Assembly: GCA_947487905.1 (NCBI GenBank)
Contig: CANLAV010000002.1
Span: forward strand, 1-59,573
DNA length: 59,573 bases
Reading direction: 5' to 3'
DNA from: Bacteroidota bacterium
Lineage (GTDB): Bacteria; Bacteroidota; Bacteroidia; B-17B0; Aurantibacillaceae
The first letter of the stretch is position 1, and the number at the start of each line of letters is the position of its first letter. The translations under genes were made by a program, and so were the position numbers. The notes below the pieces were generated by a model. It was not told the DNA's origin, ran no database searches, and saw only the letters and a list, made by a program, of their open reading frames with translations. Of the stretch, positions 3,192-39,733 are shown piece after piece.

Positions 3192-4457
3192 ATGACTATA
3201 TTAATTAAACAAGCAACCATAGTAGACTCAAAAAGTCTATTTCATAACAAAACGGTAGACATCTTAATTGAAAAAGGAGTGATTACTCAAATAAAAAATA
3301 AGATTGCACCGACAAAAAATAGTAAGTTAATAGAGGTTAAAGATTTGTTTGTGTCTGCAGGTTGGATTGATATGCAGGTTAATTTTTGTGATCCAGGATA
3401 TGAACATAAAGAAACGTTACAAACTGGCTTATCGGCTGCTTCAAAGGGCGGATTTACTGGTGTTTGTGTGATGAGTGGAACAAATCCTCCGTTGCATAAT
3501 AAAGCACAAATAGAATACATTAAGAGTCGTTCATTAAACAATATAGTTGATGTATTTCCAATTGGCACGGTGAGTCATGAGCAAGAAGGAAAAGATTTAT
3601 CTGAAATGTACGACATGAAGTTGGCAGGAGCATTTGCTTTTAGCGACTACAAAAAACCAATTAAAGATGCTGGTTTAGTTTTACGTGCCCTACAATATGC
3701 TTCAAGTATTGATAGCTTTATTATCACACACTGCGATGATAAAACCATTTCACATGACGGACAGATGAACGAAGGTGTTACTTCTACAAAGCTTGGATTA
3801 AAAGGCATTCCAGCATTAGCAGAAGAATTAATGTTACAACGTAATTTACAAATTTTGGAATATACGGGTGGTCGCATGCATATCCCAACTATTTCTACGA
3901 AAGGCAGTGTTGAATTAATAAAAAAGGCAAAAGCAAATGGATTACATGTAACTGCTGGTGTTGCAGCGTATAATTTATTTTTGGATGATACATCACTTGA
4001 AGGATTTGATTCAAACTTTAAAGTAAATCCTCCGTTGAGAAGTAAAGAAGATGTAAATGCTTTGCGTAAAGCATTAGAAAATGGAATTATTGATGTTGTG
4101 GTGAGTGATCATGCACCACAGGACATAGAAAGTAAAGATTTAGAATTTGATTTAGCGGACAATGGAATGATTACTACTCAAACGGCTTTTAATTGTATAG
4201 TATCGAGCCAATCAAAAATAACTTCTCAAAAAATAGCAGAAGTGTTCGCTGAAAATCCACGCACTATTTTAGGAATAAAACAACAAGAGGTGGCTGAAAA
4301 TAAGCTTGCCAATTTAACCTTATTCACGTTAAGCGGTAAAACAGTTATTTCAGAAAAAGATAATGCTTCGAAGTCAAAAAATTCTCCATTTTTTGGAAAA
4401 TCAATGGAAGGAAAAGTGATTGCTTCCATTAATCATGGTATGGTGTCAGCTTATTAA
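3192..4457 (+). CDS. pyrC: Dihydroorotase-like amidohydrolase with degenerate metal site (pseudo-dihydroorotase)
   Basis: 421 residues, full length for a class I dihydroorotase, the enzyme that cyclises carbamoyl-aspartate in pyrimidine synthesis. The amidohydrolase framework is clear: DPGYEHKE near residue 67, FSDYKKP near 151, THCDD at 179-183, VVSDHAP at 303-309. However the metal-binding HxH that normally precedes the R(D/E)PG motif is replaced by Q62-V-N64 and the following Arg by Cys66 (DMQVNFCDPG), and the HxxHVST motif reads HIPTIST, so a second-site His is also lost. Asp152, His180 and Asp306 remain. A non-catalytic dihydroorotase homologue, as described for the pyrC' partner of aspartate transcarbamoylase in Pseudomonas, is the closest precedent. 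A catalytic PyrC would then be encoded elsewhere. Confidence 0.85.
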   Translation: MTILIKQATIVDSKSLFHNKTVDILIEKGVITQIKNKIAPTKNSKLIEVKDLFVSAGWIDMQVNFCDPGYEHKETLQTGLSAASKGGFTGVCVMSGTNPPLHNKAQIEYIKSRSLNNIVDVFPIGTVSHEQEGKDLSEMYDMKLAGAFAFSDYKKPIKDAGLVLRALQYASSIDSFIITHCDDKTISHDGQMNEGVTSTKLGLKGIPALAEELMLQRNLQILEYTGGRMHIPTISTKGSVELIKKAKANGLHVTAGVAAYNLFLDDTSLEGFDSNFKVNPPLRSKEDVNALRKALENGIIDVVVSDHAPQDIESKDLEFDLADNGMITTQTAFNCIVSSQSKITSQKIAEVFAENPRTILGIKQQEVAENKLANLTLFTLSGKTVISEKDNASKSKNSPFFGKSMEGKVIASINHGMVSAY

Positions 4458-4473
4458 TATTCTTTTTTAACCA

Positions 4474-5526
4474 TTGAAACAAAGAAAAACACTCATTGTC
4501 GTTACGCCAGGTTTTCCTGAAAGCGAGGCTGATACGACGTGCCTACCTGCATTTCAGCAATTCGTTAGTCTATTAAAAAAAACTGAATACAATATCATTG
4601 TTCTTTCGCTTCATTATCCATTTAAGAAGAACAGGTATTTCTGGAATGGCATTCCAGTTTTTGCAATCGGAGGAAGCAATAAAGGTCGTTTTATAGGAAT
4701 AAGAACACGGTTTTTAGCATATCGCACTTTATTAAAACTTCATCAAGAAAACGAACTTATTGGTATCTTGAGTTTATGGTGTATTGATTCTGCCTTGGTT
4801 GCAAATCGCTTTTCTTTGAACTATCAAGTCAAACATTTTATATGGATTATAGGACAAGATGCTAAGCGATCAAATGGTTACGTGAAGCGCGTTAAACCAG
4901 AAGCCAAACAGTTAATTGCCATGAGTGATTTTTTGCAAACGGAATTTTGTAAAAACCATAATATATTGCCACAACACGTTGTCACAAATGGAATTAACGA
5001 ATTAGTATTTGAACCATTAAACACATTGAATAGACCAATTGATGTTTTTGGCGCAGGGAATTTGACTTCCTTAAAAAACTATGAATTATTTATTGAAGTG
5101 ATTGCTGAGGTTATAAAACATCATCCGCAGTTAGTTGTAAAGATTGCAGGTAAAGGCGAGCAAGAAGTTTATTTAAATGATTGCATTGTAACACATAATT
5201 TACAAAATAACTTGCAGTTGTTAGGTGAGGTAAAACATGACGAGGTTTTAAAATTAATGAACCAATCAAAAATATTTTTACACACCTCTCAATATGAAGG
5301 AAATTCAACTGTATTAATGGAGGCTTTGTATAATGGTTGCGAAGTTGTTTCTACACAAAGTTTATCAATCATTCCAACTTCGAGACTATATGTTGAAAAT
5401 GGAGTTCAAGATTTAGCGAATAGATTGAATGATTTATTATTAATGAATAAAACCGCAGAAAGAATAGTTTTTAATACTATGAACGGCTCAGTTCATAACA
5501 TTGTAAGTTTATTTGAAGGGGATTAA
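4474..5526 (+). CDS. Glycosyltransferase, GT-B fold, family 4/group 1
   Basis: Predicted cytoplasmic or membrane-associated sugar transferase of about 350 residues. The C-terminal half carries the usual group 1 pattern: VFGAGNLTSLKNYELFIEV, then KIAGKGEQEVYL, LLGEVKHDEVLKLMNQS and the acceptor/donor motif HTSQYEGNSTVLMEALYNGCEVV with its ExxxxxxxE arrangement. There is an in-frame TAA two codons before the TTG at 4474 and no ATG near the N-terminus, so TTG is the likely start (KQRKTLIVVTPGFPE is a normal beginning for this family). It starts 16 bp after the dihydroorotase homologue. Its last 18 bp overlap the end of the oppositely transcribed next glycosyltransferase. Substrate cannot be read from the sequence. 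Confidence 0.83.
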   Translation: MKQRKTLIVVTPGFPESEADTTCLPAFQQFVSLLKKTEYNIIVLSLHYPFKKNRYFWNGIPVFAIGGSNKGRFIGIRTRFLAYRTLLKLHQENELIGILSLWCIDSALVANRFSLNYQVKHFIWIIGQDAKRSNGYVKRVKPEAKQLIAMSDFLQTEFCKNHNILPQHVVTNGINELVFEPLNTLNRPIDVFGAGNLTSLKNYELFIEVIAEVIKHHPQLVVKIAGKGEQEVYLNDCIVTHNLQNNLQLLGEVKHDEVLKLMNQSKIFLHTSQYEGNSTVLMEALYNGCEVVSTQSLSIIPTSRLYVENGVQDLANRLNDLLLMNKTAERIVFNTMNGSVHNIVSLFEGD

Positions 5527-6579
5527 TGACGCATGAATAGCTTCAGCGATTGCTGTTGAACTGCATGTTTTTTTAAAGTGTTGATGAATGGATTGTCGCA
5601 TCAATATATTTAATTCTGTGTCTAAAGCTGCATTTAATTTTTGTGCTAACTCTATTTCATTTGTTGGTTCAAATTGCTGTTTCAACGCTAAATCACTTAC
5701 TAAATAATTAAATGCTGAAATAGTTGATACGATTGGATAAACTCCACATGCCATCGCTTCGATTAAAGAAAAACCACTTCCTTCATACAAGCTTGCAGAA
5801 ACAAATATATCAGATTGATTTAAAACTGACTCTACTTCCTGTTGTGAAATAGATCCTTTGAACGAAACTAATGAATGAAGTTGATTCGAGTCGACGTATG
5901 TTTTTAATTCGTGCTCAAGCTCCGAAGTGCCATAAAAAATTGATAAATGAAAATCCTGCCTCGATTCCTTAACTAGGTTAATGGCTTTTAAAATGGTTAT
6001 TGTGTTTTTATTTTCATTCAATCTCCCAATGCATACTAATCTTTTTGTTGATGTTGTGTGTTTCTCCTTTAGGGTAAAAGGTGTAGTAGCTTCAGGGATT
6101 TCAATGATTTTTAATCCTGCTTTTATTAGTTTGTTTTCGAGGTAAGGCTTTGCTAATTCTTTTCCGTTAAAAAAGTAGGCACTGATGTAATTATCTGCAA
6201 CACTCATTAAAATTGACTTTTTACGTAGATACGTTTTTTCCGCATGGTGCTGCAAGAAAACAGGCAGCTTAAATAAAAAACCAATGAGCCCAGCCTCTAA
6301 AAAATAGTCCAATCCATGTATGATAACGTGTTGAGGTTTCGTTTTTTTAATATAAAATAAGGTATGAATCAAAAAAAACAGTCGATTGGAATGAAATGAT
6401 TTTATATTGAAACAATCGTTTATATCATTTATATTCAGATTATTATTTATCAAATAACTAACGGCTTGGAGCTTTGCTAATTCTTTTTTATAGAGTATAA
6501 TATTTCTTTGTTGCAAATCAAATGCTTCTCGGTTTTCATACTTGCATCTAAAAAAATTAATATAAAGCATGCTACTCAT
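5509..6579 (-). CDS. Glycosyltransferase, GT-B fold, family 4/group 1
   Basis: A second group 1 glycosyltransferase, about 356 residues, on the opposite strand from its neighbour. Recognisable parts are LVCIGRLNENKNTITILKAI in the hinge region, LVSFKGSISQQEVESVLNQS, and the nucleotide-sugar motif SASLYEGSGFSLIEAMACG with both conserved Glu. The N-terminal domain is divergent. The ATG at 6579 is directly preceded by a TTG; only three bases separate this start from the stop of the upstream deaminase gene, so the two are very probably one transcript. The gene ends inside the convergent glycosyltransferase by 18 bp. Together the two suggest a role in making a surface glycan or glycolipid, an inference from context. 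Confidence 0.83.
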   Translation of the reverse strand: MSSMLYINFFRCKYENREAFDLQQRNIILYKKELAKLQAVSYLINNNLNINDINDCFNIKSFHSNRLFFLIHTLFYIKKTKPQHVIIHGLDYFLEAGLIGFLFKLPVFLQHHAEKTYLRKKSILMSVADNYISAYFFNGKELAKPYLENKLIKAGLKIIEIPEATTPFTLKEKHTTSTKRLVCIGRLNENKNTITILKAINLVKESRQDFHLSIFYGTSELEHELKTYVDSNQLHSLVSFKGSISQQEVESVLNQSDIFVSASLYEGSGFSLIEAMACGVYPIVSTISAFNYLVSDLALKQQFEPTNEIELAQKLNAALDTELNILMRQSIHQHFKKTCSSTAIAEAIHASLIPFK

Positions 6580-6582
6580 CAA

Positions 6583-7137
6583 TTAGTTGTTATAAAGTGG
6601 GTGTTTTAACAATAAAGAATCCTGTAAGTTTTCACCTGTTATTTGTGATTTATTATACTCGTAAACCAACTCCCAATTTCTTTCTTTCCACCAATAACGA
6701 AGAGACTTAGATTTCATAAATCGAACTTTTTTTATTCTATATTCAATTAAGGCTCCTCTGCACATTTCACAAGGCTCGAGCGTTGTATAGAGATACAGCT
6801 TGTTTCTATCAAGTTCATTAAATTTTTTCATACCTAATTTTTTTAAGGCCATGGTAATGGCATTTATCTCAGCGTGACCAAATGCAACACTGTCTTTTAA
6901 TACATTATTATATCCAGTTCCTAAGATAAAATCATTGAATGTGATAATGGCACCAACTGGAACATCTAAACTTGCCAAGCTTTTTCCGCCTAATTCTATT
7001 AATTGATGCTGAATCGAATAGGGAACTTCTTTCGTTTTTTTTAGTTTATAGAAAATATACGAACTAGGATACATAGCTAGTAAAAGAAATAGTAAGCCAA
7101 CTATTTTTAAGTAATGAGTTTTTAAAAAGCTGTTCAT
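6583..7137 (-). CDS. Membrane-anchored cytidine/nucleoside deaminase-fold protein
   Basis: About 184 residues. After a short basic N-terminus there is one clear transmembrane helix (KIVGLLFLLLAMYPSS), then a zinc-dependent deaminase domain: the HAEINAI motif supplies the His ligand and catalytic Glu, and TTLEPCEMCRGAL the two Cys ligands (PCxxC). This fold covers tRNA-adenosine, guanine and cytidine/deoxycytidylate deaminases; the subfamily cannot be fixed here. A membrane anchor is unusual, since family members are normally soluble. A TTG 30 bp upstream could extend the protein by ten residues, but the ATG at 7137 puts the helix right at the start. It is followed within a few bases by a glycosyltransferase and is divergent from the nucleotidyltransferase gene. 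Confidence 0.75.
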   Translation of the reverse strand: MNSFLKTHYLKIVGLLFLLLAMYPSSYIFYKLKKTKEVPYSIQHQLIELGGKSLASLDVPVGAIITFNDFILGTGYNNVLKDSVAFGHAEINAITMALKKLGMKKFNELDRNKLYLYTTLEPCEMCRGALIEYRIKKVRFMKSKSLRYWWKERNWELVYEYNKSQITGENLQDSLLLKHPLYNN

Positions 7138-7196
7138 AATCTTTTGGTTGATATTATAAATATCCAAAAAAATTCCTTTACTTGCATGTAAATTTT

Positions 7197-8129
7197 ATGG
7201 TACTACGATCTAAAATACATCTCAATGACTGCGAATTAGCTATCATTAAGGTAGTAGCCTATTACGATGTGTTTAATTATCCCCTAACAAAAAAAGAAAT
7301 TTTAGAGAATCTCGGCAATCCATTTGTTGAATCAACTTTCGAAATCACGATCAATAGTCTTATTCAAAAAAATGTAATTAAGACTCAAGATGATTTTTAT
7401 TTTGCACAACATTTTGATACAAAATTTATAAATCAGAGAATTAAAGCCAATCAGTTAGCACGGTTAATGTTTCCTTTGGCAAGAAAATATAGCGACAGAA
7501 TTTCAAAATTTCCTTTTATAAAAGGAGTTTTTATTTCGGGAGGACTTTCTAAAAATTATTTTCATAAACATAGCGACATCGATTATTTTATTGTTACGAC
7601 AAAAAATAGATTATGGTTATGTCGAACCATTTTTATTTTATACTACAAGTTGCTTTCTAAAAAGAAGAAAGAATTTTTTTGTCTGAATTATTTTATTTCA
7701 GAAGCTGATTTAACTATTCCTGATAGAAATCAATTTGTCGCGACTGAAATTGCAACTCTGATGCCAATGGTAAATCATGATTTATATATTCAGTTTTTGC
7801 AAGCGAACGATTGGTACACATCTTACTTTCCTCAAAAGTCATTATGGCCTGCTAAGGATTCTCTGGCACTTAAAAAAAATCTTGTCAAATCGTTTATGGA
7901 GTACTTTTTTTCTGGGGTAATTGGAAATAGAGTTGACGATTTATTATTAAGACTAACGCTAAAACATTGGAAAAAAAAGTATAGTGATTTAAAGAATGAA
8001 GATTTTGAATTGCAAATACGTAGTCGTAAACATGTTTGTAAACATCATACAAAAGGCTATCAAAATAAAGTTTTAGAGAAGTGGCAAACTACTATTGATG
8101 TCATGTTAATGCAAAAAGAAGCTATTTAA
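7197..8129 (+). CDS. Nucleotidyltransferase-domain protein with N-terminal winged-helix-like region
   Basis: About 310 residues. Residues 10-80 look like a winged helix (ELAIIKVVAYYDVFNYPLTK, then LIQKNVIKTQDDFYF). The centre has a minimal nucleotidyltransferase motif of the DNA polymerase beta superfamily: GGLSKNYFHKHSDIDYFIV, matching GG(x)S-x(n)-SDID where the two Asp bind metal. The C-terminal part is basic and not recognised. Enzymes with this motif transfer AMP or other nucleotides to small molecules, RNA or proteins; the target here is unknown. The ATG at 7197 is preferred to a TTG 15 bp earlier. The stop lies only 4 bp before the radical SAM gene, so the two are translated from one message. 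Confidence 0.72.
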   Translation: MVLRSKIHLNDCELAIIKVVAYYDVFNYPLTKKEILENLGNPFVESTFEITINSLIQKNVIKTQDDFYFAQHFDTKFINQRIKANQLARLMFPLARKYSDRISKFPFIKGVFISGGLSKNYFHKHSDIDYFIVTTKNRLWLCRTIFILYYKLLSKKKKEFFCLNYFISEADLTIPDRNQFVATEIATLMPMVNHDLYIQFLQANDWYTSYFPQKSLWPAKDSLALKKNLVKSFMEYFFSGVIGNRVDDLLLRLTLKHWKKKYSDLKNEDFELQIRSRKHVCKHHTKGYQNKVLEKWQTTIDVMLMQKEAI

Positions 8130-8133
8130 TCAA

Positions 8134-9591
8134 ATGAAGGTTTTATTTACCCATAGTTATTTTTTAAAGTTTGATAGCAAACAATTCAAGCAGGCTATGC
8201 CTTATCCACCATTGGGAACGCTATACGCTATGGCTTATTTAAGAGAACACGGATTTGAAGTGAAATTATTTGATACAATGTTTTGCCAATCTCCAACTGA
8301 TATCAATGCGACTATTGATGACTTTAAGCCAGATGTATTTATCAGTTATGACGATGGGTTTAATTACCTTACTAAAATGTGCTTAACGAATATGCGTGAA
8401 GCTTGTTTTAAAATGCAGCAATATGCCAAATCAAAAGGATGCATGGTCATTACCTCAAGTTCAGATGCTACCGATCATGCAGAAGATTATTTAAATCATG
8501 GATCCGATGCTGTTACTATTGGAGAAGCTGAACAAACGGTTTTAGATTTATGTTTAACCTTTAAATCAAATCAATCCATCAATTCTATTTCAGGTATTGC
8601 TTTTTATAATAATAGTGTTTTTCAAAAAACAACGCCACGCACTATTATTAAAGATTTAGATACATTGCCACATCCAGCATGGGATTTAATTGACATTATT
8701 CCATATAAACAGATGTGGATGAAGCATCACGGTTATTTCTCTTTAAATTTTGTGACAACGCGTGGATGTCCATATAAATGTAATTGGTGTGCAAAGCCTA
8801 TTTATGGAAACCGATATAATTCTCATTCGCCTCAAAACATTGTATTGCAAATAAAAAAATGGCAACAACAATTTGGATTTACACACGTTTGGTTTGCTGA
8901 TGATATTTTTGGACTAAAGCCTAACTGGCTCAAAGAGTTTGAAGATTTTGTGAAGAAAGAAAATGTAATGTTTGACTATAAAATACAAAGTCGAGCAGAT
9001 TTACTTTTAGAAGAAGATAACATCAAACATTTAGCTGAAACTGGCTGTAAGATGGTTTGGATGGGCGCAGAAAGTGGTTCTCAAACTATTTTGGACGCAA
9101 TGGATAAGGGCACCAAAGTGCAACAGATTTATGAAGCAACGCATTTATTAAAAAAACATCACATACATGTATCTTTGTTTTTGCAGTTAGGTTATTTGAA
9201 TGAAACAATTGATGATATAAAAAAAACCATCGAGATGGTAAACGATTTATTGCCTGATGATATTGGCATTTCTGTATCTTATCCTTTGCCAGGAACAGTT
9301 TTCTTTGAAAAAGTAAAAGATGAATTAAAACAAAAATCAAATTGGTTAGACAGTGATGAATTAGCGATGATGTTTAAAAACACTTACAAGCCTTCATTTT
9401 ATAAACAATTACAAAAATACATTCATAAATTATACCGACGCAATCAAGCACTTGATGCTTTTAAACATCAAAACAACAATTCCTATATAGGTGCAATTAA
9501 ACAGGTTGTAGTATTTGTAAAATTTGATATTTTAATGCGCTTAGAGAAATATAAACTAATACAAATTGAAGCAGTTGCATCGAGATTATAA
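8134..9591 (+). CDS. B12-binding-domain radical SAM protein
   Basis: 485 residues. The N-terminal ~150 residues form a Rossmann-like cobalamin-binding-type domain (PPLGTLYAMAYLREHGFEV, FKPDVFISYDD, GSDAVTIGEAE), without the DxHxxG motif, as is usual in this class. The radical SAM core follows, with the [4Fe-4S] ligands in TRGCPYKCNWCAKP (CxxxCxxC) and further family marks (WFADDIFGL, KMVWMGAESGSQ, FLQLGYLNETIDDI). Class B members methylate unactivated carbons or catalyse ring rearrangements; others act in methylthiolation. The substrate is not readable. It lies between a nucleotidyltransferase (4 bp) and a methyltransferase (3 bp) in a tight operon that looks like a biosynthetic cassette. Confidence 0.85.
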   Translation: MKVLFTHSYFLKFDSKQFKQAMPYPPLGTLYAMAYLREHGFEVKLFDTMFCQSPTDINATIDDFKPDVFISYDDGFNYLTKMCLTNMREACFKMQQYAKSKGCMVITSSSDATDHAEDYLNHGSDAVTIGEAEQTVLDLCLTFKSNQSINSISGIAFYNNSVFQKTTPRTIIKDLDTLPHPAWDLIDIIPYKQMWMKHHGYFSLNFVTTRGCPYKCNWCAKPIYGNRYNSHSPQNIVLQIKKWQQQFGFTHVWFADDIFGLKPNWLKEFEDFVKKENVMFDYKIQSRADLLLEEDNIKHLAETGCKMVWMGAESGSQTILDAMDKGTKVQQIYEATHLLKKHHIHVSLFLQLGYLNETIDDIKKTIEMVNDLLPDDIGISVSYPLPGTVFFEKVKDELKQKSNWLDSDELAMMFKNTYKPSFYKQLQKYIHKLYRRNQALDAFKHQNNNSYIGAIKQVVVFVKFDILMRLEKYKLIQIEAVASRL

Positions 9592-9594
9592 ATA

Positions 9595-10434
9595 ATGGCT
9601 ATGAAAAATCAATCCATTGGGGATACTGAAATAAAAAGACAAGAAGAAGAGGTGAACGGTGCGTTTTCTAAACAGTCTGGTATTTTTGATTCGCTTGAAG
9701 TTGATAATGAATTGGTGCTTTTGATTCGAAATAATATTCGTCAGCATGTCTTAAATTATACCGCTCCAAGTCAAACCATGTTGGAACTAAATTGCGGAAC
9801 TGGTCTTGACGCGGTGTTTTTTGTGAATCAGGGATTATTTGTTCATGCCACAGACAATGCAGAGGGTATGTTAAATCAACTTCAACAAAAAGTTATTAAT
9901 GATAAGTTAGAAGATAGATTAACCTTCCAAAAATGTTCATTCAATGAATTAGAACAATTAGAACAAAAAAGATATGGGCATGTATTTTCTAATTTTGGGG
10001 GATTAAATTGCTCGCCAGATTTAAAAAAAGTGATTAAAAGCTTAGACAACTTATTGGAGGTTGATGGAATGGCTCATTTGGTTATTATGCCTCGTTTTTG
10101 TGTGTGGGAAATGCTATTTGCAGTGAAGGGTCTATTTAAACTTGCATTTCGCAGATTTAGTTTAAATGGTTCAAAATCTCAAGTAGAAGGTTTATCTTTT
10201 ACCACTTATTATTATTCGCCTCGCTATGTCCAAAAGGCCTTCGGAAATAATTATGAAACAAGGTCGATAAAAGCCATGGGTTGTTTTATTCCACCAACTT
10301 ATATGGATCAAATGCCTCAAAAACGTCCAAGTTTTTTTAAAAAATTGATTAGTCTTGACGCTAAATACGCCCATAAATGGCCTTTTTATAACTTAGGCGA
10401 TCATTTTGTTATCAGCATTCAAAAAAAGCGTTAA
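9595..10434 (+). CDS. Class I SAM-dependent methyltransferase
   Basis: 279 residues with the Rossmann methyltransferase motifs in order: motif I LELNCGTGLDAVFF (SAM glycine loop, close to residue 63), an acidic HATDNAEGML for the ribose contact, then FSNFGGLNCSPDLKKV and LLEVDGMAHLVIMPRFCVWEML. The N-terminal NGAFSKQSGIFDSLE resembles the entry helix of small-molecule methyltransferases. An aromatic, basic C-terminal region may form the acceptor pocket. The gene is last in the nucleotidyltransferase-radical SAM-methyltransferase operon, 3 bp after its neighbour, so its substrate is probably the product of that pathway. Target unknown. Confidence 0.8.
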   Translation: MAMKNQSIGDTEIKRQEEEVNGAFSKQSGIFDSLEVDNELVLLIRNNIRQHVLNYTAPSQTMLELNCGTGLDAVFFVNQGLFVHATDNAEGMLNQLQQKVINDKLEDRLTFQKCSFNELEQLEQKRYGHVFSNFGGLNCSPDLKKVIKSLDNLLEVDGMAHLVIMPRFCVWEMLFAVKGLFKLAFRRFSLNGSKSQVEGLSFTTYYYSPRYVQKAFGNNYETRSIKAMGCFIPPTYMDQMPQKRPSFFKKLISLDAKYAHKWPFYNLGDHFVISIQKKR

Positions 10435-10452
10435 GAAGACACTAATTTTAAG

Positions 10453-10496
10453 CCTATTTATTTCGCTAAATAGGAAGGTTTTTATATAAACCTTCC
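10453..10496 (+). terminator. Two overlapping hairpins after the methyltransferase operon
   Basis: CCTATTTA (10453-10460) pairs perfectly with TAAATAGG (10467-10474) around a TTTCGC loop. GGAAGGTTT (10473-10481) pairs perfectly with AAACCTTCC (10488-10496). The stems share GG at 10473-10474, so at their edges they compete. There is no clean U-tract after either one, so termination is plausible but not textbook. Position, just past the operon end and before the mdh promoter, fits a terminator. Confidence 0.45.
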
Positions 10497-10507
10497 TTGA
10501 CTTTAAT

Positions 10508-10538
10508 TTTGCAAAACATTCAAAAAGACGTACTTTCG
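10508..10538 (+). promoter_or_regulatory. Bacteroidota-type promoter for mdh
   Basis: TTTG at 10508-10511, a 19 bp spacer and TACTTTCG at 10531-10538 match the -33/-7 pattern of the primary sigma factor of Bacteroidota (TTTG, 19 bp, TAnnTTTG; here TTCG in the -7). The predicted start lies about 45 bp upstream of the mdh ATG. A TAATTTTG at 10504-10511 overlaps the -33 element but has no matching upstream box. Confidence 0.65.
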
Positions 10539-10588
10539 TGGGGAAAATTTAAAATTCATTAATATATAATTTATAAATAAAAAACATC

Positions 10589-11527
10589 ATGACAAAAGTA
10601 TCAGTAATTGGAGCAGGAAACGTGGGCGCAACGTGTGCCGAGTACATCGCATTACGTAAAATTGCGAGCGAAGTAGTAATTTTAGATATTAAAGAAAACT
10701 TTGCTGAAGGAAAAGCATTAGATTTAACTCAAACCTCTTCCTTGAATGGGTTCGACACAAAAATTAGCGGAAGTACCAACGATTATTCAAAAACAGCAAA
10801 TAGTGATGTTGTGGTTGTTACGTCTGGTATTCCTCGTAAACCAGGAATGACTCGAGAAGAATTAATTGGTATCAATGCTGGGATTGTAAAAACAGTTACA
10901 GAAAATGTATTAGCTCATTCTCCAAACGCAATCATCATTATTGTTTCTAACCCAATGGATACAATGACTTACTTAGCTTTAAAAGGAAGTAAATTACCAA
11001 AGAACAGAATCATCGGAATGGGTGGTGCTTTAGATAGCGCTCGTTTTAATTGCTATTTATCAAAAGCGATGAATGTTCCTGCTAGTGATATTCAAGGTGT
11101 TGTTATTGGTGGACATGGAGATACGACCATGATTCCATTAACACGTTTAGCAACTTATAATGGTGTACCAGTTGCCAATACGTTAGATGCTGAGACATTA
11201 AACAAAGTAGCTGCTGATACAATGGTAGGTGGCGCTACTTTAACAGGCATGCTTGGAACTTCAGCATGGTATGCGCCAGGCGCTGCAGTTGCTACAATTG
11301 TGGATAGCATCTTAAATGATCAAAAGAAATTAATTCCTTGCAGTGTTTTTTTAGAAGGAGAATATGGACAAACAGATATTTGTATGGGTGTTCCAGTTGT
11401 TATCGGAAAAAGTGGTTGGGAGAAAATAGTTGACTTTAATTTGAACGATGAGGAAAAAGCATTGTTTGCAAAAAGCGCGGATGCTGTAAGAAGCATGAAC
11501 TCTGTTCTTTCTTCTGCAACAGCTTAA
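10589..11527 (+). CDS. mdh: Malate dehydrogenase (NAD-dependent)
   Basis: 312 residues, the normal size of the LDH-like malate dehydrogenases. It interconverts malate and oxaloacetate in the TCA cycle in the cytoplasm. Visible landmarks are the NAD-binding GAGNVGATCAEYIA, an acidic residue after strand beta-2 (VILDIKENFAEGKALDL) favouring NAD, the substrate-binding loop GIPRKPGMTREEL with its Arg residues, SNPMDTMTYLA, and the catalytic His in GGHGDTTMIPL. It has its own promoter and is followed by a strong hairpin with a T-run, so it is probably transcribed alone. Confidence 0.96.
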   Translation: MTKVSVIGAGNVGATCAEYIALRKIASEVVILDIKENFAEGKALDLTQTSSLNGFDTKISGSTNDYSKTANSDVVVVTSGIPRKPGMTREELIGINAGIVKTVTENVLAHSPNAIIIIVSNPMDTMTYLALKGSKLPKNRIIGMGGALDSARFNCYLSKAMNVPASDIQGVVIGGHGDTTMIPLTRLATYNGVPVANTLDAETLNKVAADTMVGGATLTGMLGTSAWYAPGAAVATIVDSILNDQKKLIPCSVFLEGEYGQTDICMGVPVVIGKSGWEKIVDFNLNDEEKALFAKSADAVRSMNSVLSSATA

Positions 11528-11545
11528 TTTTTATCATCCATAACT

Positions 11546-11601
11546 TAACCACATAGTAGCATAGGTTTATTTATATCTGTGAGCCTATGTGGTTATTTTT
11601 T
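11546..11601 (+). terminator. Rho-independent terminator after mdh
   Basis: TAACCACATAG (11546-11556) is perfectly complementary to CTATGTGGTTA (11585-11595), followed by six T (11596-11601). The 28-nt loop holds a further CATAGG/CCTATG complementarity, so alternative foldings around the same right arm are possible. Confidence 0.75.
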
Positions 11602-11618
11602 AAAACCTTTTTTAATTG

Positions 11619-12425
11619 ATGTATTATTCTTTAGCTATACTTTTTATATCCTTCGGCATTGTTGATGTGATTGATATTTTATTAGTATCTGTTATTTTAT
11701 ACCAATTATATAAAATGGTGAAAGGGACAGCAGCAGTGAATGTGTTTGTTGGCTTAACCCTAATTTACATCGTTTACATCATTGTTCGTGCCTTTGAATT
11801 AAAATTACTAGGAACGATACTTGGCCGATTTATTAATGTTGGTGTGATTGCCGTAATGGTTGTTTTTCAGCAAGAGATTCGTAAGTTTTTGCTGTATATC
11901 GGATCTAACGAATTTTTAAAAAACACATCCTGGAAGACATTGTTTTCATTCTCAAGTCCAGAAAGCAGCATGAGTAGTAAATTCTTACTGAACGCTGATA
12001 CTGTTATTAATGCTTGTTTTGTTATGAGTGAATCAAAAACGGGGGCGTTAATCATCATTTCAAAAAAATCTGATTTAGTATTTTATGTTAATACAGGCGA
12101 AAGCGTGGACTCTGCCTTAACAGATAAAATGCTTGAAAATATTTTTTATAAAAATAGTCCGATGCATGACGGTGCGGTTATTATAAAAGACAATAGAATT
12201 GTGGCAGCACGTTGTGTATTACCAGTAACTGAAAAAGAAAATTTTCCATCTAATTTTGGAATGCGTCACAGAGCTGCGGTGGGTATTACAGAAACGACAG
12301 ATGCCATTGCTATTACCGTTTCTGAGCAAACAGGAGCAGTATCTCTAACTGTTAACGGAGAAATCAACTCAAACCTTACCAAAGAAAAATTACGCTATCT
12401 GATCGAGAAAAATTTGAAAGCATAG
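11619..12425 (+). CDS. cdaA: Diadenylate cyclase (c-di-AMP synthase) CdaA type
   Basis: Makes the second messenger c-di-AMP from two ATP at the inner face of the cytoplasmic membrane. About 268 residues from the ATG at 11619 (a TTG directly precedes it). Three N-terminal hydrophobic segments (roughly residues 4-29, 38-58, 66-84) precede the DAC catalytic domain. Both catalytic motifs are intact: D184-G185-A186 (MHDGAVII) and R216-H217-R218 (GMRHRAAVG). The start VDVIDILLVSVILYQLYKM is the typical CdaA opening. In Firmicutes the gene is followed by cdaR and glmM; here it is instead between mdh and an ABC-F gene, a usual Bacteroidota arrangement in that a cdaR neighbour is missing. Confidence 0.93.
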   Translation: MYYSLAILFISFGIVDVIDILLVSVILYQLYKMVKGTAAVNVFVGLTLIYIVYIIVRAFELKLLGTILGRFINVGVIAVMVVFQQEIRKFLLYIGSNEFLKNTSWKTLFSFSSPESSMSSKFLLNADTVINACFVMSESKTGALIIISKKSDLVFYVNTGESVDSALTDKMLENIFYKNSPMHDGAVIIKDNRIVAARCVLPVTEKENFPSNFGMRHRAAVGITETTDAIAITVSEQTGAVSLTVNGEINSNLTKEKLRYLIEKNLKA

Positions 12426-12499
12426 AAATAGACAGGAAAACTTAAAGGACTAAAAAGACAAAACAATTCAATCATTCACAATTTCTCTAATAACATAAA

Positions 12500-14416
12500 A
12501 TGAACTTATTATCAGTAAATCAATTAAGTAAAAGCTATGGCGACAAAGTTTTATTTAAAAATATAAACTTCGGAATTAATTATGGTGATAAAGTTGCTTT
12601 AATTGCAAAGAATGGTTCGGGGAAATCAACCTTATTTAAAATATTACAAGGCCAAGAAATTGCTGATTCGGGTGATGTTGTTTTTAGAAAAGAATTAAGA
12701 ATTTCGTTTTTGAGTCAAGAACCAGAATTAAACGAAACTCACACAATACTCGAAGCAATTTATGCGGGTGATAGTGAGATGGTTAAAACAGCCATTGATT
12801 ACACGCGTTTGGTGGAAACACATTACGCTAATCCAACAGAGAAAACAGAAAATCAATTGGATATTTTAACCAATAAAATGAATGATTTAGAAGCATGGAA
12901 TGTGGAAACACAAATCATGCTAGTGTGTTCTAATTTAGGTTTGGATGATACCACGCAAATCGTTAGCACCTTAAGTGGTGGACAAAAAAAACGATTAGCC
13001 TTAGCGCAAGTTATTTTAAATGAGCCTGATTTATTAATCATGGATGAGCCAACTAATCACTTGGATGTAACAGTGATTGAATGGTTAGAAGATTATTTAC
13101 GTTCGTATAAAAAAAGTATTTTATTAGTAACGCATGATCGTTATTTTTTAGATGAAGTGTGTGATAAAATTATTGAAATTGATAATTATTCCATGCATGA
13201 ATACAAAGGCAACTTTCAATACTACATGGAAAAGAAAGCCGAGCGCATGATGATTGAAGCATCTGAATTAGACAAAGCAAAAAATTTATATAAACGTGAG
13301 CTAGAGTGGGTGCGTAAACAACCGCGGGCACGTACTACAAAATCAAAATCTAGAGTGGATGCCTTTGTGGATGTGGAAGCAAAAGCACGTAAAAAAAGCG
13401 TCGATAAAAAAATTGAATTAAGTGTAAAAGTTGAACGTATTGGAAGTAAAATTATTGAAGTTACTAAATTGCAAAAAGCATTTGGCGATAAAAAAATATT
13501 AGATCCATTTTCATACACGTTTATTAAGGGTGAAAAAATTGGTATTGTTGGACCAAATGGAATTGGAAAAAGTACCTTCATCAATATGTTGCAAGGCATT
13601 GAACCGCCTGATGCTGGTAAAGTGTCGGTGGGTGATACCATTGTGTTTGGGTATTATTCTCAAAAAGGAATTCAAGTGGCGGATGATAAACGTGTGATTG
13701 AAGTTGTGAAAGATATTGCCGAATTTATTCCATTAGCTAACGGTACCTCGCTAAGCGCTTCTGCATTATTAACGCGTTTTAATTTTGCTCCTGAAGTACA
13801 ATACGGACACGTGAGTAAATTGAGTGGTGGCGAGCGAAGACGCTTGTATTTACTAACCGTGTTAGTGCGTAATCCTAATTTTTTAATATTAGATGAGCCT
13901 ACTAATGATTTAGATATCGTGACTTTACAAACCTTAGAAGAGTTTTTATTAGATTTTCAAGGTTGTGTATTGATTGTATCTCACGATCGTTATTTTTTAG
14001 ATCGTTTAGTAGATCACGTATTTGCATTTGAAGGCAATGGAGTTGTGAAAGATTTCCCTGGAAATTATAGCGAATACCGCCAATGGAAATTTGATTCCGA
14101 AGATGAGTTAGAAGAATTGGAACGCGAAGCAAAAAAACAAAAAACATTGGAAGCGAAAGTAGAAGAAGTTGCTAAACCAGTTTTGGAAACACCTGTGCTT
14201 ACTGAAAAAAAGAAACGTTCTTATAAAGAAGAAAAAGAATTAGAAGGTTTGGAATCTGAATTACCAGAATTGGAAAAGAAGAAAACAGATATTGAAAATA
14301 AATTAGCCAGCGGATTAACAGACGCTAATGAAATCGAAAAATTATCTTCTCAGTTTAGTTTTATTTTAAAAAGCATTGATGAAAAAACCATGCGTTGGCT
14401 AGAGTTGCAGGATTAA
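12500..14416 (+). CDS. ABC-F family ATPase, Uup-like
   Basis: 638 residues with two ABC ATPase domains and no membrane segments, the mark of ABC-F proteins, which act on the ribosome (or, for Uup, also on DNA-related processes). Walker A motifs are AKNGSGKST near residue 37 and GPNGIGKST near 350; signature motifs are LSGGQKKRLAL near 157 and LSGGERRRLYL near 441; Walker B LLIMDEPTNHLD and FLILDEPTNDLD follow. The linker between domains is basic (ELEWVRKQPRARTTKSKSR). The C-terminal ~100 residues are charged and predict a coiled coil (ELEGLESELPELEKKK), as in Uup, which favours Uup over EttA. Confidence 0.9.
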   Translation: MNLLSVNQLSKSYGDKVLFKNINFGINYGDKVALIAKNGSGKSTLFKILQGQEIADSGDVVFRKELRISFLSQEPELNETHTILEAIYAGDSEMVKTAIDYTRLVETHYANPTEKTENQLDILTNKMNDLEAWNVETQIMLVCSNLGLDDTTQIVSTLSGGQKKRLALAQVILNEPDLLIMDEPTNHLDVTVIEWLEDYLRSYKKSILLVTHDRYFLDEVCDKIIEIDNYSMHEYKGNFQYYMEKKAERMMIEASELDKAKNLYKRELEWVRKQPRARTTKSKSRVDAFVDVEAKARKKSVDKKIELSVKVERIGSKIIEVTKLQKAFGDKKILDPFSYTFIKGEKIGIVGPNGIGKSTFINMLQGIEPPDAGKVSVGDTIVFGYYSQKGIQVADDKRVIEVVKDIAEFIPLANGTSLSASALLTRFNFAPEVQYGHVSKLSGGERRRLYLLTVLVRNPNFLILDEPTNDLDIVTLQTLEEFLLDFQGCVLIVSHDRYFLDRLVDHVFAFEGNGVVKDFPGNYSEYRQWKFDSEDELEELEREAKKQKTLEAKVEEVAKPVLETPVLTEKKKRSYKEEKELEGLESELPELEKKKTDIENKLASGLTDANEIEKLSSQFSFILKSIDEKTMRWLELQD

Positions 14417-37142: not shown

Positions 37143-37985
37143 TTAATTAAATACCTCAAGAGTTACGCCATCATAACTTGCAAATACCATTGCAGGATGA
37201 GAATTTTGGTGGTAGGTATTTCCAAATTTATCAATGGCAATGGCTCCAGCAAAACCATCAATAGATTTTAATTCATTAAATGTTTTTTCAAATGCTTCAT
37301 CAATTAACATACCATCTGTAACGCGGGTTACAATTTTTGTCGCAACGGCTGCACTGACAATGTCTTCACCAACACCTGTGCAACTAACACCACAATCATT
37401 GGTAGCATAATTTCCTGCTGAGGTTGCTGAATCGGATATTCGTCCTGGCATTTCAAATCCTTTGCCACCTGTTGAGGTTGCTGCTGCAATATTTCCATGA
37501 GCATCAAGTGCAACACAGCCAACGGTGCCTATTCCTTTACTCGCCACTTTTTCTTCGTATTCTTTTCTTCGTTGGGGAATTTCGGTGCTATATTTTTCAA
37601 AACCGTTATGTCTTGCAAAATGTGTCGCGCCACTTCCGCCTAAAACTCGATCATCGTAGGTAAATAATTTTTCAGCTACTCTAATTGGATTTTTTGTATC
37701 CTCAATATTGATCACACCACTAAAGCGTTTGGTTAATCCATCCATTAGTGATGCACTCATTCTTATTTTCCCGTCACTTTGAATTTGTGAACCAATGCCC
37801 GCATTAAATAATTCGTCATTTTCTAAAAGCTCAACCGCATATACAATGGTTTGTATGGCTGTATGAGTTTTCAGGTAATCGTATGATGCTTCAGCAATTC
37901 GAGATAAAGCCTGTTGTTTGGCTAGTTTAGTTTCTGCTGATTGCGATGATTCGCTAAAGAAACCACCGTGAATAATTATTTTCAT
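37143..37985 (-). CDS. iaaA: Isoaspartyl peptidase / type 2 L-asparaginase
   Basis: 280 residues, Ntn-hydrolase family T2. It autocleaves before a Thr, which becomes the nucleophile; the motif GIGTVGCVALDAHGNIAAATSTGG with Thr at the cleavage site is intact, and RISDSATSAGNYATND, GVGEDI follow. The start KIIIHGGFFSESSQ is slightly shorter than usual. Known activities are release of iso-Asp from dipeptides and asparaginase action. Together with ribD and the EamA transporter it forms a minus-strand operon by spacing; a metabolic link is not evident. Confidence 0.9.
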   Translation of the reverse strand: MKIIIHGGFFSESSQSAETKLAKQQALSRIAEASYDYLKTHTAIQTIVYAVELLENDELFNAGIGSQIQSDGKIRMSASLMDGLTKRFSGVINIEDTKNPIRVAEKLFTYDDRVLGGSGATHFARHNGFEKYSTEIPQRRKEYEEKVASKGIGTVGCVALDAHGNIAAATSTGGKGFEMPGRISDSATSAGNYATNDCGVSCTGVGEDIVSAAVATKIVTRVTDGMLIDEAFEKTFNELKSIDGFAGAIAIDKFGNTYHQNSHPAMVFASYDGVTLEVFN

Positions 37986-38002
37986 TTAATGTTGTCTTTT
38001 TG

Positions 38003-38377
38003 TTATTTCGATTTCTTTTTTATCAAATAGTCATTTTGAATTCTCAAATACTCGATTTCTTTTTTTAATTCTTCAATTGCTATAATGAAGCCTTCTGTAT
38101 TTTTAATATCATTTATTTTAGAATTATAAGTAGTATAGTTTTCGAAATTATCCATTGCTAATATAGTGCTTAAATGCACATTAAAATAATTCGAAATTTG
38201 AATTATTCTGCTTATACAAATATCAGTTAACCCCCTTTCAATATTACCATATGCGGCTAAGGATATTTCTAGATCAGCACATACTTTTTTTATTTCTAAA
38301 TTATTTTCAAGCCTAATTTTTTTAATATTTCCACCAATTTGTTTTTTGATGTTTTCAAAAATGTAGTGCTCTTTCAT
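38003..38377 (-). CDS. XRE-type helix-turn-helix regulator with C-terminal coiled coil
   Basis: 124 residues. Residues ~12-75 form a Cro/CI-type helix-turn-helix (IGGNIKKIRLENNLEIKKVC, LEISLAAYGNIERGLTDI, IISNYFNVHLSTIL-like end). The C-terminal ~40 residues (AIEELKKEIEYLRIQNDYLIKKK) have heptad spacing for a coiled-coil dimer, a layout often seen in small Bacteroidota regulators. Three copies of an ATATTTTTAGT half-site lie in the 60 bp directly upstream of its ATG and a -7-like TATTTTCG box (minus strand, 38426-38419) lies between them, so self-repression is likely, and control of the divergent pair of orphan genes is plausible. Confidence 0.82.
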   Translation of the reverse strand: MKEHYIFENIKKQIGGNIKKIRLENNLEIKKVCADLEISLAAYGNIERGLTDICISRIIQISNYFNVHLSTILAMDNFENYTTYNSKINDIKNTEGFIIAIEELKKEIEYLRIQNDYLIKKKSK

Positions 38378-38382
38378 GGGTC

Positions 38383-38436
38383 ATATTTTTAGTAAAACTA
38401 AAAATATATTCAGTTAAACGAAAATATTTTTAGTTT
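38383..38436. promoter_or_regulatory. Three-half-site operator for the adjacent XRE regulator
   Basis: ATATTTTTAGT (38383-38393) and ACTAAAAATAT (38397-38407) form a perfect 11-bp inverted repeat with a 3-bp centre. A third copy, ATATTTTTAGT(TT), sits at 38424-38436; with AAACTAAAAATAT (38395-38407) it forms a 13-bp perfect inverted repeat with a 16-bp spacer. All lie between the regulator's ATG (38377) and the divergent promoter. A C-GAAAATA (38419-38426) in the spacer can act as the regulator's own -7 box. Binding is inferred. Confidence 0.65.
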
Positions 38437-38443
38437 AAATGCA

Positions 38444-38472
38444 TTTATTTTACTGTTCGTCGAATATCTTTG
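38444..38472 (+). promoter_or_regulatory. Putative promoter of the orphan exported-protein genes
   Basis: TATCTTTG (38465-38472) is a perfect -7 box. Upstream is TTTA (38444-38447) with 17 bp between, a weaker -33. It is next to the operator and about 85 bp before the first gene, leaving a leader of roughly 85 nt. Confidence 0.5.
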
Positions 38473-38562
38473 TATTGTCAAAATGATTTAGCTAAAGAAT
38501 TGATAGGTGTAAACGAAAAACCTTTTTTTAAAAGAGTAGTAAATTAATTAAATATTAAAAAA

Positions 38563-38940
38563 ATGAGAAAATCAATAATTGTGGCCATTATAGGCTTTAC
38601 GTTTTTAGTTGGCAAATCAGATAATGCAATATTAAATTTAAAAAGTGTTGATCTAAAATTTTCGGCGATGAGACCCCAGAAACACATCGATATATGGCTT
38701 ACCTCGAAAGGGGGTTGCAAATTCCATATAGTTGGAGAAGCTTCCGCTTTTCCTCCTAGTTTTTCTGGAAATATATCTGCCAGTGGGAATCCTCCATGTC
38801 CAAATGGAAGTTGGGATGTAAGTGTAAAGAATCCAGTTGAAACAAATGATTTGTTATTCTCAAATGGAAGCATTGAAGGATTTAATGTATTGATTGAAAA
38901 TTCAGATCTAAAGCAAGCTTTAATAAATGCTATTAATTAA
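38563..38940 (+). CDS. Unrecognised small protein with possible signal peptide
   Basis: 125 residues; no family recognised. It opens with basic residues and a hydrophobic run (MRKSIIVAIIGFTFLVG), consistent with export though no clear cleavage site follows. The middle is rich in Gly, Ser, Pro and Phe with two Cys (GGCKFHIVGEASAFPPSF, SGNPPCPNGSWDVSVKN), and may form a small disulfide-closed beta domain. It begins an apparent two-gene unit, divergent from the XRE regulator and separated from the next gene by a 15-bp hairpin. Coding nature is supported by the ATG, the consistent frame and the promoter, but not by homology. Confidence 0.55.
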   Translation: MRKSIIVAIIGFTFLVGKSDNAILNLKSVDLKFSAMRPQKHIDIWLTSKGGCKFHIVGEASAFPPSFSGNISASGNPPCPNGSWDVSVKNPVETNDLLFSNGSIEGFNVLIENSDLKQALINAIN

Positions 38941-38947
38941 AACACAT

Positions 38948-38983
38948 ATTGCCAATTATAGTGCTTTTACTATAATTGGCAAT
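38948..38983 (+). other. 15-bp perfect hairpin between the two orphan genes
   Basis: ATTGCCAATTATAGT (38948-38962) pairs perfectly with ACTATAATTGGCAAT (38969-38983) around GCTTTT. What follows is A-rich, not a T-run, so this is not a standard plus-strand terminator; a role in mRNA processing, partial attenuation or protection of the upstream message is possible. The downstream ATG lies 15 bp after it. Confidence 0.7.
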
Positions 38984-38997
38984 TAAAATAAAAAAAG

Positions 38998-39633
38998 ATG
39001 AAAATAATAACACTCAGTTTAATATTAATAATTAATAATTGTTTTGGCCAAACCTATCAATCTGAATATAGTGGTATGTATAAATCAAAAACAAATAGTA
39101 TAACAACTAGTAAAAATAAAATTCATGTTGGGGATTTAATGAAAGATGTTTTAATCGAAGACATATTGTTTACTTATACCATGTCAATAATTTCTAATAG
39201 TGATTTTAGCATTATTAAGGTAGGAATCACTAACATGGATTTACCTATTGAAGCTAATTATGAAACAGAAACATTTTTTATTGATTATTCAACTAAGATA
39301 GTTTATGATTTGAATAAAAAAACTTACAATGACTATATTTCTAATAAAGTGGTAGTTTCAAAAAATAGTCGTACACCAATGTATGAGGTATCTACATCTT
39401 ATAAAGGGGATACGGCGATAATTACGATTGATAAAACACTTCCAAAACAATTATTGTGTAAGTCATTTATGAATATACAAAAACATGGTGTAAGGAAAAT
39501 TATAACCAAACAAGATGAAGTCGTGCTTTTAAATTATTTTAAAACGGAGTTTGATTTTAATTCGACTTTATTAAAGGTTAAAAAAGTTTGCACTGTCAAG
39601 GGGAAACAAATGAATTATCTTTTCGGGAATTAG
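38998..39633 (+). CDS. Unrecognised secreted protein
   Basis: 211 residues, no recognised family. A standard signal peptide is visible (MKIITLSLILIINNCFGQ, cleavage after CFG or at FGQ-T). The mature part is rich in beta-strand-like polar segments: TYQSEYSGMYKSKTNS at the start, FSIIKVGITNMDLPIEANYETETFF in the middle, and NYFKTEFDFNSTLLKVKKV near the end. It could be a periplasmic or outer-membrane-facing protein; a resemblance to GLPGLI-type proteins was considered but the diagnostic motif is missing. It is the second gene of the island behind the XRE operator. Confidence 0.6.
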   Translation: MKIITLSLILIINNCFGQTYQSEYSGMYKSKTNSITTSKNKIHVGDLMKDVLIEDILFTYTMSIISNSDFSIIKVGITNMDLPIEANYETETFFIDYSTKIVYDLNKKTYNDYISNKVVVSKNSRTPMYEVSTSYKGDTAIITIDKTLPKQLLCKSFMNIQKHGVRKIITKQDEVVLLNYFKTEFDFNSTLLKVKKVCTVKGKQMNYLFGN

Positions 39634-39733
39634 TACTGTTTTAGTGAAGGCTGGCTCTTTTCAGTTAAATAGTTTAATAAAGACACAACATGTTTAGTTA
39701 TATTAATAGCGATAATCTTAATAATTAATAGTA

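Follow-up and report, generated by a model that had tools for sequence, protein, structure and literature searches.

Three copies of the 11-mer ATATTTTTAGT lie just upstream of the gene for an Xre-type regulator in a Bacteroidota genome. Do they form an operator, and if so, which genes does it control? We studied them in the window (the whole stretch of DNA that was analysed, 59,573 nucleotides). A sequence-only reading had described an inverted pair plus a third half-site, and had proposed a self-regulated switch that would also govern two divergent orphan genes.

Repeats upstream of the regulator

The three exact copies are where that reading had placed them: at 38383-38393 (+ strand), 38397-38407 (- strand), and 38424-38434 (+ strand). 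The first two are inverted around a 3-bp centre, and the third is 16 bp away. They adjoin the regulator's start, as the start codon (38375-38377) is 5 bp from the first copy. The regulator matches HTH_3 from Pfam with 31.4 bits (gathering score 23, E = 2e-7), which places it in the Xre/HTH_3 family. We did not find any domain beyond the HTH, such as a peptidase or oligomerisation domain.

Table 1. Features of the regulator locus (positions in the window)
Feature	Positions	Strand	Description
Xre-type regulator	38003..38377	-	124 aa; HTH_3, recognition helix ISLAAYGNIERG, short charged tail
O1	38391..38399	.	AGTaaaACT; dyad with no mismatch (perfect), centre 38395; forms the core of the inverted pair 38383-38407
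O2	38412..38420	.	AGTtaaACg; 5/6 dyad, centre 38416; 21 bp from O1
O3	38432..38440	.	AGTttaAaT; 5/6 dyad, centre 38436; 20 bp from O2
Imperfect inverted repeat, 42 bp	38395..38436	.	17-bp arms, 1 mismatch, 8-bp spacer
Candidate -7 box, divergent promoter	38465..38472	+	TATCTTTG; sequence match; expected start near 38477
Orphan 1	38563..38940	+	125 aa; signal-peptide-like N terminus
Orphan 2	38998..39633	+	211 aa; signal-peptide-like N terminus
Module	37986..39733	.	regulator, operator array and two orphans; between the ubiA and asparaginase genes

By itself, the 11-mer is probably not the functional unit. It is not enriched in the 2.45-Mb genome (19 copies, versus 29 for a reversed control). 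Also, when the spacer was shuffled 20,000 times, 313 of the shuffles (1.6%) contained some 11-mer in three copies, because this spacer is 79% A+T. These results would fit a coincidence, with poly-A/T stretches in A+T-rich DNA yielding look-alike repeats. What is above chance is the arrangement of the sites, rather than the 11-mer. In a genome-wide pattern search, the full palindrome TATTTTTAGTnnnACTAAAAATA was found without mismatches at this locus only, and the next best match (C41:9388) is within an open frame of 413 codons. The sequence-only reading had suggested defining a regulon from further inverted pairs, but by pattern search we did not find a regulon elsewhere in the genome.

A tandem array of dyads

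When 122 related Xre-type regulators are compared, the functional unit appears to be a shorter dyad, AGTnnnACT. The three copies stand, but the inverted pair plus lone half-site gives way to three tandem AGTnnnACT dyads, 21 and 20 bp apart, of which one is perfect and two match at 5/6 positions (O1-O3 in Table 1). The spacing is close to two helical turns, and the array is between the regulator and the divergent genes. O3 includes the end of the third copy of the 11-mer. The triple array, with 16/18 matches, is the best in the window and the only one of its quality there, and shuffling the spacer 5,000 times did not yield one. This argues against coincidence, as does the recurrence of both the dyad and its spacing near related regulators of other families, so we consider coincidence to be very unlikely. 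The sites themselves are well supported by comparison.

The second and third copies of the 11-mer also form an imperfect inverted repeat of 42 bp, which the sequence-only reading had not mentioned. If it is transcribed, then a hairpin of -12.6 kcal/mol is predicted (z = -4.4), and the repeats might work as RNA, by folding within the 5' leader of the regulator and controlling its translation or transcript end. However, the hairpin is not conserved in L002 (z = +0.9) or L032 (z = +0.3), which are two related loci that keep the tandem dyads, so we take the RNA structure to be a by-product. The hairpin also does not have the GC-rich stem and U-run of a terminator. We give little credence to control by RNA, and we prefer sites in DNA.

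Conservation among related regulators

We compared the regions upstream of regulators of the helix class [AGS]AY[SG]N[IML]E (n = 9) to those of 109 other homologs, using a blind list of 832 dyads (64 triplets x 13 spacings). AGTnnnACT ranked first: it was present in five of the nine same-helix regions and in none of the 109 others (p = 7e-7). The motif was drawn from the window and from L002, which contains the regulator's closest relative. With both excluded, AGTnnnACT still ranked first (3/7 versus 0/109, p = 1.4e-4, uncorrected), and the independent cases with perfect sites are L005, L032, and L061 only. This comparison backs the earlier proposal that the sites are the operator of the adjacent Xre regulator.

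Spacing of 20-22 bp is common to four relatives, two of which have two perfect sites. At L002, two perfect AGTttaACT sites are spaced by 20 bp, and at L032 (from Chitinophaga), two perfect ones are spaced by 22 bp. L005 has three sites, at 21 and 20 bp, and L040 has a marginal array of weaker sites, again at 21 and 20 bp. Shuffling gave p = 0.003-0.01 for the tandem arrays of these four loci. In tests of triple arrays against shuffles, p was 0.01 or less at six of the loci closest to the window's, and 4.6% of the 109 others had p < 0.05, as expected by chance. (The array at L045 looked weak by eye and was left out of the tally.)

At L061, one perfect site lies by itself, 20 bp ahead of the ATG. 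A clear array was not seen at L061 or at two other same-helix relatives (L003 and L069), nor at the more distant L071, L072, L081, L093, and L111. As these eight regulators have similar helices, the link between helix and array is not universal. The last phylum-wide search did not return any new close relatives for a prospective test. In the tree, the regulators from the window and from L002 are sisters (support 100/99), but there is no single clade made up of just the loci with arrays. The L002 regulator has no ATG at its expected start (1444-1534); the open frame starts after a stop codon, and the first usual start, a TTG, would remove part of the HTH.

Could another regulator bind these sites, or could the array activate the divergent promoter instead of repressing it? 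O3 is near -40 of the candidate start on the + strand, which is a position that activators also use. The type of site tracks the type of helix in the adjacent regulator, which argues against a different regulator; activation may still be at work. Overall, we think this explanation is unlikely, and we favour repression by the adjacent regulator. At L070 and L175, where the related regulators carry an AYAKIE helix, different repeated motifs lie upstream (AACTGTCC / GGACAGTT in L070), which suggests that other helix types may have dyads of their own.

Candidate promoters

As the sequence-only reading had stated, there is a perfect TAnnTTTG box (TATCTTTG) on the + strand, beyond the array. In Flavobacterium psychrophilum, the -7 box was mapped at -12 to -5 (PMC9723704), and this gives the expected start of divergent transcription in Table 1. 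The same reading had placed the regulator's own -7 box in the spacer, but the minus strand has several 7/8 matches (38426, 38408, 38406, and 38400), and this box is one of them. None of these has a TTG at the -33 distance, so we do not consider the regulator's -7 box to be established. On both strands, a good -33 element is lacking; the candidate divergent promoter also does not have a -33 TTG.

The divergent genes and their insertion site

We did not find relatives of orphan 1 in the other genomes of the family that we searched, or of orphan 2 in 19 other genomes of the genus, plasmids, or viral contigs. Orphan 1 does not match any HTH family in Pfam, NCBIfam, or PHROGs. Structure predictions from the single sequences were poor for both orphans (mean pLDDT of 37 and 53).

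The neighbours in the window are ubiA, asparaginase, and ribD. In L158, which is from the same genus and whose UbiA is 88% identical, ubiA and the asparaginase gene are 18 bp apart (2350-2367), and in L159, also from the same genus, a different gene of ~0.7 kb lies between them (at about 805-1500). So, the module is present here and missing in the sister. (By eye, the intervening gene in L159 looks like SanA/YdcF.) Judging from these arrangements, the junction between ubiA and asparaginase seems to be a site of insertions in this genus. The regulator's stop is 17 bp from the start of asparaginase on the same strand (37985-38003), so asparaginase is possibly co-transcribed with the regulator, and both asparaginase and ribD may have come under the control of the regulator's promoter through the insertion.

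Does the array also control the orphans? At all five loci with arrays (the window, L002, L005, L032, and L040), a small divergent ORF is found at a distance of 88-262 bp, and L061 and L069 have no such ORF nearby. The array might be for autoregulation only, with the divergent orphans as independent cargo outside of its control. This would fit with the position of the best site (O1) on the side of the regulator, with L061, where a lone perfect site has no divergent gene nearby, and with the lack of a homologous target gene common to the loci. On the other hand, the clear arrays occur where there is a small divergent ORF, and there would be overlap between O3 and the -33 region of the candidate promoter on the divergent side. 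We consider autoregulation alone to be possible but doubtful, and control in both directions to be the better account.

Proposed mechanism

We propose, with a probability of roughly 70%, that the array is the autoregulatory operator of the adjacent Xre regulator and that it probably also holds down the divergent orphans. Computation shows where the sites lie and how they are spaced, that they are conserved with the regulator subfamily, and that the module is inserted. A self-regulated switch is likely; that it controls the two orphans as well is plausible, on the basis of position only. We infer binding, the stoichiometry of dimers, the order of affinities, repression rather than activation, cooperativity, an inducing signal, and control of the orphans, as follows.

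One dimer of the regulator would bind each AGTnnnACT dyad, with the highest affinity at O1, followed by O2 and O3. With spacing of about two turns, the three dimers would be on one face of the helix, which is compatible with cooperative binding. O1 would cover the regulator's leader or promoter, so that binding would repress the regulator's own expression. Since O1 immediately precedes the start of the regulator, the simplest interpretation is negative autoregulation. In the candidate divergent promoter, O3 and its flanks would span roughly -49 to -33, so if that promoter is real, the array probably holds down the orphans. The secreted orphans would be released once the regulator was removed or inactivated.

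A limited literature search did not find a described operator for this subfamily of Bacteroidota Xre regulators. Our results offer a concrete one, AGTnnnACT every two turns, and tie the type of site to the type of recognition helix.

Comparison with known systems

The sister regulator (L002/L035) is 44% identical to the window's regulator, has the same type of recognition helix, and, as in the window, has a small divergent gene. In L035, this gene encodes a 67-aa GG-leader peptide, and the surrounding genes (3720-12834) encode an ATP-grasp protein, a SPASM protein, a thioredoxin-like protein, HlyD, and a peptidase-type ABC transporter. The best families in L035 were TIGR04192 (203 bits, cut-off 230) and TIGR04193 (126 bits, cut-off 175). 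As these scores are below the NCBIfam cut-offs, we view this as a divergent branch, a RiPP cluster that is similar to grasp-with-spasm. In contrast, there are no ATP-grasp, SPASM, HlyD, or peptidase-ABC genes around the window's regulator, which does not belong to such a cluster, and its orphans have no recognised relation to the cluster in L035. We found no paper under "grasp-with-spasm," and the graspetide passages that we consulted make no mention of this type of regulator for the Bacteroidota branch. Together with the operator proposed above, the link between the nearest relative and a RiPP cluster makes the control of such clusters testable.

More speculatively, regulators with AAY(S/G)N(I/L)E helices and AGTnnnACT arrays could act as control heads for mobile conflict cassettes of Bacteroidota, in which one bidirectional switch would be used again and again with unrelated secreted or peptide cargo, and which would insert at hot spots such as ubiA-asparaginase. 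We consider this unlikely. If it held, then the cargo would be a RiPP cluster in one genome and genus-unique secreted orphans in this one.

The immunity regions of lambdoid phages (OR of lambda; S. aureus phage Phi11, PMC3991615) also have three similar dyad operators between the gene for an HTH repressor and a divergent gene. In those regions, the operators overlap both promoters, which we expect for the array in the window too. There are differences. In the CI/Cro systems, Cro is a second DNA-binding repressor, whereas the divergent gene in the window is an orphan of secreted type. The window's regulator has 124 aa and none of the extra domains that we looked for, and its sites are 20-21 bp apart. 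Nor, as far as tested, is the context that of a prophage: the neighbours are ubiA, asparaginase, and ribD, and among viral contigs, a single-sequence search found no relatives of the regulator and an alignment found one distant relative (30%). What the locus does share with lambda is helically spaced dyads in the regulator's own upstream region, and lambda-like binding and repression are predicted from these. This kind of mechanism has long been known, and the window probably contains a further self-regulated Xre repressor with a multi-operator array.
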